Below, piece after piece: positions 4,940 to 44,127 of a stretch of DNA of 59,347 bases. The stretch is from Deltaproteobacteria bacterium. Lineage in GTDB: Bacteria; UBA10199; GCA-002796325; JACPFF01. How positions within the stretch are numbered: the first letter of the stretch is position 1; each line of letters starts with the position of its first letter. The notes beneath the pieces are model-generated. The model did not search any database, had not been told where the DNA came from, and saw only the letters and a list, made by a program, of their open reading frames with translations. The position numbers were made by a program, and so were the translations under genes. The stretch spans positions 91,449 through 150,795 of the forward strand of contig JACPFF010000015.1 of NCBI GenBank assembly GCA_016183065.1, in the 5' to 3' direction.

Positions 4940-4984
4940 TCGCAGAAAGGATGCCTTCAAGCAGCAGGCACGTGGGGCCCCACC

Positions 4985-5270
4985 ACCCAGCGCGCACCGC
5001 GCGCGAGAGGGGGAGGCAGTGGCGACGACCGAGTCCGGGGACCCAGCGAAGCTGGGTGGACGAGGGAGTCCCCCAGCGCGCACCGCGCGCGAGAGGGGGG
5101 GCAGTGGCGACGACCGAGTCCGGGGATCCAGCGAAGCTGGGTGGACGAGGGAGTCCCCCAGCGCGCACCGCGCGCGAGAGGGGGGCAGTGGCGACGACCG
5201 AGTCCGGGGATCCAGCGAAGCTGGGTGGACGAGGGAGTCCCCCAGCGCGCACCGCGCGCAATAGTGGGGC
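4985..5270. repeat. Tandem GC-rich repeats, about 85-bp unit, just over three copies
   Basis: The block CGCGCACCGCGCGCGAGAG recurs at 4991, 5077, 5162 and 5246, giving periods of 86, 85 and 84 bp that differ only in a run of G. Each unit also holds a hairpin CCAGCGAAGCTGG and the block GACGAGGGAGTCCCCCAG. Units are nearly identical with no unique spacers, so it is not a CRISPR array. It fills most of the gap between nadB and pgsA. Open frames run through it only because the unit length and composition avoid stops. Confidence 0.9.
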
Positions 5271-5288
5271 ACGTGTGCCGGGATCATT

Positions 5289-24132: not shown

Positions 24133-25228
24133 ATGCAAGCGTTAAAGGAACGATACGAGACGGTGCACACATCGATGGCCGCTTTGCGGAGGCATCTTTG
24201 ACATCGAACAGAAGATCGCGGAATTACAGCGACTGACCGAGGCCTCCCAGGCCCCTGACTTGTGGAACGATCAGGCGGCGGCAAAAACGGTGACACAACA
24301 ATTGACGGCAGTAAAAGAGATGATGACGGAGTGGCAGCGTGCGGAAGGCGCATTGCACGATGTAGAGGCCTCATTCGAATTGCTGGAGGAGGCGGGGGAT
24401 GCCGAACTCGAACGCGAAGCCGAGCTCAAACTCGATCAGGTCGCCCAGACCGTGGAACGGTTTGAGTTTCGCCGGATGCTCTCCGGACCACATGACCATG
24501 GCGATGCCATCGTGCAAATCAATGCGGGGGCCGGAGGCACCGAGGCCTGTGACTGGGCAGCGATGTTACTGCGGATGTACGCCCGGTGGGCGGATACGCA
24601 AGGATTTCGGGCCGAGCTCGTCGATTTCACGCCGGGCGATGAAGCCGGGTACCGCAATGTGACGATGACCGTGGCCGGACCGTATGCCTATGGCTATCTC
24701 CGCGCGGAAGTGGGGGTCCATCGACTGGTCCGCATTTCCCCGTTCGATGCCAACAAGCGGCGGCACACCTCCTTTTGTTCGCTCTTTGTCTTGCCCGATA
24801 TTGGCGATGAGGTCGAAATCGAAATCAATGAAAACGATCTCCGGGTGGATACTTTTCGTGCCGGCGGGGCGGGCGGTCAGCACGTGAACAAGACCGATTC
24901 GGCCGTCCGCTTGACCCATCTTCCCACCGGCATTGTGGTCGCCTGTCAGAACGAACGCTCTCAGCACAAAAACCGGGCCCGCGCGATGAAACTCCTGAAG
25001 GCGAAGTTGTATGAGGCGGAAGAAGAGAAGAAACGAAAGGCGCGGGAGGCATTAGAAGCGGAAAAATCCGAAATCGCGTGGGGTTCTCAAATTCGGTCCT
25101 ACGTGCTACAGCCGTACCAAATGGTGAAAGACCATCGCACCGGCGTGGAACTCGGGAATGTGCAGGGAGTGCTCGATGGGGCGTTAAACCCGCTCATGCG
25201 GGCCTATCTGCTGCAGTCAGGGACCTAG
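24133..25228 (+). CDS. prfB: Peptide chain release factor 2, with programmed +1 frameshift
   Basis: Recognises UAA/UGA stops. A 22-codon frame starts at ATG 24133 (GAGGAG upstream) and ends at an in-frame TGA (24199-24201) in the canonical slippery context CTT TGA C, with an internal Shine-Dalgarno-like GGAGG just before it. Reading resumes at GAC 24200, giving 364 aa in all. RF2 motifs are visible: [13 protein letters not shown] (carrying the SPF-type anticodon loop) and [18 protein letters not shown] with the catalytic GGQ. Annotated as joined 24133-24198 and 24200-25228. This autoregulation senses RF2 level. Confidence 0.97.
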
Positions 25229-42537: not shown

Positions 42538-44127
42538 ATGGATAAGATACTGATCCTCGATTTCGGTTCGCAATATACCCAACTGATCGCCCGGCGCGTG
42601 CGTGAGGCCAAAGTCTATTGCGAAATCCATCCGTGTACGTGGCCGTTTGAGGCCGTCCGTGCGTTTGCACCGTGCGGGGTCATCCTCTCCGGCGGGCCGT
42701 CGTCCATTGCAGGGACTCACGGACCCTCCGACGCTCGCTCGCCGTGCGCGCCGCAAACCATTTGAGGCGCGGATGCACCGCAGCTCGATCAGCGGATCCT
42801 CCAGCTGGGGGTGCCGGTGTTAGGGATCTGCTATGGCATGCAAGCCATGGCCGCCCTTGAGGGGGGGAAGGTGGGTGGCGGCACGCGCCGGGAATATGGC
42901 GAAGCGCATGTCCACTATGTCACCAACCACCCGCTCTTTCGGGGAGTCCCAGCGGGACCGCAATCGGTCTGGATGAGCCACGGCGACCATGTGGAGCGAG
43001 TGCCGCCAGACTTTTCCGTACTCGCGCAGAGCACGTCGGTTCCGGTCGCCGCCATGGGTGATGACACCCGGCGGCTCTATGGATTGCAATTTCATCCCGA
43101 GGTGATGCACACACAACACGGCCGAGACATCCTCCACAACTTTCTCTTTCCCCTCTGTGACGCGCATGCGGAGTGGACCATGGGGTCGTTCATCGAACGG
43201 GCCATTGCCAAGATTCGCGAGACCGTGGGGACGGCGCACGTCGTCTGCGGTGTTTCCGGTGGTGTCGATTCCTCGGTGGTGGCGACACTGCTCCATCGTG
43301 CGATCGGGGACCAACTCAGCTGCATTTTTGTCGATACGGGGTTGTTGCGAAAAAAGGAGGGAGAGAACATCCCCCGTTTTTTTGCGCAGCATCTCGGGAT
43401 CCCGCTGCAATCGATTGCGGCAGGGCCGCGGTTTTTGGCGCGCCTTGCAGGTGTGGTCGATCCCGAAGAGAAGCGGAAAATCATCGGGCACGAGTTTATT
43501 GCGGTCTTTGAGGAGGCTGCCCGGCAGATCCCTGGTGTCGAATTTCTGGCACAAGGGACGCTCTATCCCGACGTGATTGAGTCCGTGTCATTCAAGGGAC
43601 CTTCGGCCACCATTAAGTCCCATCATAACGTCGGCGGACTTCCAGAGGCGATGGGATTGCGGTTGTTGGAGCCCCTGCGGGAGTTATTTAAAGACGAAGT
43701 GCGGCAGCTCGGTGAAGAGCTGGGCATGCCACGAGAAGCGGTGTGGCGCCATCCGTTCCCCGGACCCGGGCTGGCCGTACGCATTCTCGGCGCTGTCACA
43801 CCGCGCGCGGTGGCCATGGTGCAGGAGGCCGATGACCTCATGATGGACGAAGTGAAACGTGCCGGATGGTATGACCACGTCTGGCAGATGTTTGCCGTCC
43901 TCCTCCCCGTCCAAACAGTCGGCGTAATGGGCGATGCCCGCACCTACGAACACGTCATCGCCATTCGTGCGGTCACCAGCCATGACGGCATGACGGCCGA
44001 TTGGGCGAAACTCCCGGCCGAACTCCTGGGGTGCATCTCCAACAGCATCATTAATGAAGTGACTGGCGTGAACCGAGTGGTCTATGATATCACCTCGAAA
44101 CCGCCCGGGACGATTGAGTGGGAGTAG
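42538..44127 (+). pseudogene. guaA: GMP synthase (glutamine-hydrolysing), reading frame interrupted
   Basis: Converts XMP to GMP. The frame starts at ATG 42538 ([20 protein letters not shown]) and reads [13 protein letters not shown], then hits TGA at 42763-42765. The same frame resumes without any shift and reads [25 protein letters not shown], containing the glutaminase Cys, followed by a complete synthetase and C-terminal domain with P-loop [15 protein letters not shown]. Comparison with family members shows an extra 18 codons (42714-42767) carrying the stop. A GTG at 42811 could start a 438-aa product lacking the first 91 residues. The rest is under no obvious decay. Confidence 0.85.
42714..42767 (+). 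other. 54-bp in-frame insertion in guaA carrying TGA
   Basis: Removing exactly these 54 bases restores [16 protein letters not shown], which aligns without gaps to the usual GuaA sequence. The insertion is GC-rich; its complement contains GCGCGCACGGCGAGCGAG, 16 of 18 bases like the GCGCGCACCGCGCGCGAG core of the tandem repeats at 4985-5270. It contains TGA (42763-42765) and a short CGCGCC/GGCGCG stem. Confidence 0.75.

Follow-up and report, generated by a model that had tools for sequence, protein, structure and literature searches.

The guaA gene described here raises the question of how a reading frame for GMP synthase came to carry a short in-frame insert with a stop codon, and what that stop means for the gene. 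The locus lies in a window of 59,347 nt (the whole stretch of DNA that was analysed), which belongs to a draft genome (G000) of 1.97 Mb in 30 contigs, 88.8% complete. A single continuous frame represents guaA, and its translation shows one in-frame stop, a TGA at codon 76 (Table 1). NCBIfam recognises GMP synthase on either side of the TGA, the 5′ piece corresponding to positions 1–60 of the profile and the 3′ piece to positions 71–512, and when the TGA is read through, the frame matches the profile over its entire length (1–512 of 512, 779 bits). Aligned with 29 relatives, the protein has exactly 18 additional codons between SGGPSS and DAP, and the alignment contains no further indels. The original prediction, made from the sequence of this stretch, was of an exact 54 bp in-frame insertion with a UGA codon, well conserved on both flanks, the excision of which would restore a gap-free GuaA. 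All of this was confirmed, and near-invariant columns are largely kept on both sides. The relatives carry guaA without the 54 nt insert, and no second guaA was found in the draft genome at its 88.8% completeness. The other two matches of the GuaA search in this genome are TrpG- and CarA-like, labels that are our reading of weak amidotransferase-domain matches.

Table 1. Features of the guaA locus (positions are those of the window).
Feature	Position	Strand	Basis
guaB (IMP dehydrogenase), intact, directly 5′ of guaA	41041..42522	+	NCBIfam
guaA (GMP synthase) frame with one internal TGA	42538..44127	+	translation, NCBIfam
guaA 5′ piece, 75 codons + TGA	42538..42765	+	GuaA profile 1–60
Left direct repeat CCATTGCAGG, identical to the border of the murF copy	42704..42713	+	sequence comparison
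25 nt, 22 identical to left end of dispersed repeat (ATTGGAGGGGCTCACGTACCCTCCG)	42706..42730	+	unrelated same-length windows scored lower
54 nt net insert, absent at this site in 29 relatives	42714..42767	+	alignment
31 nt, ~81% identical to inner module of dispersed repeat (GGAGCCTCCCCCTCACGCTCGCCGTGCTCGC)	42721..42751	+	
Hairpin with TGA inside, 11 nt arms, 91% complementary	42747..42771	+	
Right direct repeat CCATTTGAGG, 8/10 identical to left; two changed bases make TGA	42758..42767	+	
In-frame TGA, codon 76	42763..42765	+	translation
guaA 3′ open frame from GTG, possible restart product	42811..44127	+	amidotransferase domain incomplete, ATP-pyrophosphatase domain intact

The edges of the insert can be slid over the imperfect 10 nt direct repeat that bounds it. 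A first search with the insert returned nine stretches elsewhere in the genome (21–31 nt, 81–90% identity), eight of them being the same 31 nt at 81%, and all nine belong to one repeat family. The insert, which the original prediction had left without an identity, thus resembles a dispersed repeat family of the same genome. Its best match is to the left end of one repeat subfamily (22 of 25 nt). The score of the insert against the family is 36. None of 200 shuffled versions scored above 30, nor did 298 of 299 random windows; the remaining window reached 121, presumably because it fell on a true repeat copy at 4974–5272. The guaA copy is short and diverged, with some 25–31 nt convincingly alignable at once, and the case for its kinship with the family, drawn from sequence comparison, is good but not overwhelming. 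AlphaFold2 models the insert as a loop of low confidence that joins a strand to a helix, and most of the remaining GuaA is modelled confidently.

Members of the repeat family begin with (C)ACTATTGGAGGGGCTCACG and contain strong palindromes; they are assembled from exchangeable modules, which gives them a mosaic structure. The consensus folds far better than shuffled sequences (z −4.2). A translated search of the genome gave 132 matches, many of them weak, and 109 distinct copies are present in the fetched genome stretches. Complete copies are about 170 nt long, most copies fall between 70 and 260 nt, and the bases preceding the first hairpin vary (GGAG, ACAG, GTAG or GCAG). The window itself holds a long, tandem-like mosaic copy at 4974–5272. 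Across the class, 22 of 46 genomes contain the repeat core, often at 85–96% identity.

Fourteen of the 109 copies have a same-strand coding signal on both flanks (the fifteenth row of the listing of coding copies is the opposite strand of one of these). Of the 14, 12 keep the reading frame, 11 of them without any stop codon. Given a one-third chance, the probability of finding at least 12 of 14 in frame is about 8e-5 by our own calculation, which is approximate owing to the codon-usage filter; the census relies on this filter, and insertions in weakly coding genes may escape it. Host genes named by NCBIfam are murF, acpS, rlmN, and those for 2-oxoglutarate dehydrogenase E1 (sucA), B12-dependent ribonucleotide reductase, murein transglycosylase D (mltD) and an esterase, all with in-frame, stop-free copies. 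The copy in murF (L170/L075, G000:C24:39853-40023) is 168 nt long, in frame and stop-free, adds 56 codons to an essential gene, and is bounded on both sides by an exact direct repeat containing CCATTGCAGG. The murF and guaA copies have their left border, reading frame and amino-acid start in common. A copy in a periplasmic binding-protein gene (L173, G000:C27:46266-46436) is in frame with one TGA, which the repeat consensus itself has when read in that frame, so that no special decoding is needed to account for it. A further in-frame copy lies within the intein (LAGLIDADG and splicing domains) of a ribonucleotide reductase gene (L243, G000:C3:10700-13400), and the linker of that gene holds another repeat copy (L180).

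Apart from the insert, guaA looks undecayed. None of 55 near-invariant columns is violated in the amidotransferase domain, and 4 of 142 are violated in the rest of the protein, where other sequences average 1.5 and reach at most 7. Its identity to outgroups is close to that of the GuaA of G001, the sole genome of the same family that was compared, and its GC3 resembles that of guaB. A gene this well preserved leaves two readings of the nonsense change: either it happened very recently or it is not real. If CCATTGCAGG was duplicated at guaA as it was at murF, the right border would be expected to read ATT GCA GG, and it now reads ATT TGA GG; by this comparison the stop would stem from two changed bases of the right border, and not from the body of the repeat.

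The 54 nt are best read as a real, in-frame, shortened insertion of a mobile repeat. On balance, we consider it most likely that the insert is a shortened and diverged copy of the mosaic repeat that entered guaA in frame, and that the present allele is a fresh nonsense allele. A repeat copy would have entered in frame and stop-free, as in murF, duplicating its target CCATTGCAGG; it would then have been shortened by lengths divisible by three for as long as GuaA was required, and the change of the right border from GCA to TGA would be a recent one. We infer this order of events from sequences outside the species and the genus. A cell with no other allele would depend on HPRT for guanine salvage, or else on traces of full-length enzyme. 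A gene for HPRT scores above the profile cut-off in the genome, making guanine salvage possible, and among the options listed in the original prediction, a recent knock-out with salvage fits best, given this gene and the otherwise undecayed state of guaA. Against this scenario, the right border is two bases off a perfect repeat, so that one nonsense substitution would not suffice, and a knock-out of guaA beside an intact guaB would be costly unless guanine is taken up.

The GuaA of G001, the nearest relative, is 67% identical, and a scan of genome contigs for close relatives gave nothing above 62% identity. The guaA gene of G001 (L031:1360-1520) carries a different in-frame, stop-free insert at another site, before VWMSHGD, and this insert terminates in GGGGCGCGAGCCCCTGT, which is the family's left end in reverse complement. 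At least one relative in the same class (G008, estimated to be 98% complete) shows no guaA, its only match being TrpG-like, and judging from this genome, loss of guaA may occur in the class.

The main rival of a recent nonsense allele is an error of sequence or assembly. The insert would be real, but the TGA would have come from a mistake in consensus or assembly, or would belong to a minority strain variant, and the true allele would be stop-free and yield a slightly longer GuaA. We regard this as unlikely, though with a chance large enough to be taken seriously, as the assembly is a 30-contig draft, the TGA arises from two changed bases of a 10 nt border within a hairpin, all other parts of GuaA look functional and the repeat copies within coding sequence mostly lack stops. 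However, a consensus seldom has two wrong bases side by side.

That the TGA is read through to some extent, or the insert skipped, with full-length GuaA as the product, appears improbable. It would agree with an undecayed guaA in a genome where no second copy was found, with the position of the TGA in a hairpin, and with the binding-protein gene of L173, which likewise has an in-frame copy with one TGA, although that TGA belongs to the repeat consensus. Against readthrough, release factor 2 (RF2) is encoded in the window (at about 24188–25210), TGA is the stop of 10 of the 17 long genes in the window, and no tRNA-Sec above the cut-off was found in the genome. On these observations a recoded UGA or selenocysteine was rejected, and the readthrough option of the original prediction is unsupported; UGA is an ordinary stop in this genome and is probably ordinary in guaA itself. 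A special RNA fold around the TGA was also rejected, the whole region folding no better than shuffled sequences (z −0.9). As for ribosome bypass, which had likewise been proposed, the only match between codons separated by 54 nt is ATT (otherwise GGG versus GGC), and because ATT would land directly before the TGA there is no working pair of take-off and landing codons.

Translation might instead restart at GTG 42811, as had also been suggested, giving a GMP synthase that depends on ammonia and lacks a complete glutaminase domain, an option that seems more doubtful still. The downstream frame of 438 aa is open, its ATP-pyrophosphatase domain is intact, and GMP synthases are able to use external ammonia as a substrate in vitro, but with a reported Km for ammonium of up to 174 mM (PMC10526850). 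This GTG has no evident ribosome-binding site, and a start there would forgo the first part of the amidotransferase domain. Moreover, that domain keeps all its near-invariant columns both before and after the TGA, contrary to what one would expect from a lasting loss of the glutaminase.

It is very unlikely that the insert is unrelated to the repeat family and arose through a local duplication or expansion by chance. In favour of this, the match is short and both repeat and insert are GC-rich; against it, every shuffle and all but a single control scored lower, the insert matches the family in two separate modules, and border, frame and amino-acid start are held in common with the murF copy. 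There is similarly little likelihood that the repeat acts as a class-wide in-frame decorator of essential proteins, with hairpins that allow reading past an occasional UGA, so that GuaA and the L173 protein would both be made at full length.

Interpreted as a repeat insertion with a recent nonsense change, the locus invites comparison with known systems. The palindromic elements of Rickettsia are dispersed repeats of about 150 bp that lie in frame in unrelated protein genes, adding a short peptide (PMC10969869). The analogy with these elements, drawn in the original prediction, holds in mode, as the insert appears to be a member of a family with many dispersed palindromic copies, which sit in frame and mostly stop-free in many genes; the guaA copy is in frame but has a stop. 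The phylogenetic setting and base composition differ, the present repeats being GC-rich, built of mosaic modules and variable in length. What looks like an oddly broken guaA is thereby a readable case of a mobile palindromic repeat entering essential genes in frame, in the mode seen in Rickettsia but in an unrelated lineage. The parallel insertions in murF, acpS, rlmN, sucA and other genes provide material on how proteins tolerate inserts and how inserts decay.

The locus also resembles a nonsense allele or pseudogene made by a mobile element, in that an element interrupts a gene that has an internal stop. The binding-protein gene of L173 is a further example, as is an IS200-type transposase gene (L228:1474-1884) that was apparently shortened by a repeat copy. 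In contrast to such cases, guaA keeps its frame and has one stop only, situated at the border of the element.

Intragenic REPs of the GTAG/CGTC type (Di Nocera 2013) are hairpin-forming repeats known from several phyla, some of which lie inside genes and encode additional residues (PMC3733652). The present family shares with them the dispersed hairpins and the occurrence of some copies within genes as coding sequence. However, REPs are 20–40 bp long with a GTAG/CGTC tag, whereas complete copies here are several times that length and the tag is variable. Neither its tag nor its length suits a GTAG REP, and no clear co-occurrence with a REP transposase is seen; the repeat is therefore not classed among these elements. 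The genome has one RAYT-like (REP-type tyrosine transposase) gene, which falls below the NCBIfam cut-off, and its relatives turn up in 14 of the 22 genomes of the class that bear the repeat and in 18 of the 24 that lack it, a distribution that does not support a REP-type transposase as the mover of the repeat. A REP-type tyrosine transposase gene (L227:1462-2052) lies about 0.9 kb from a repeat copy.
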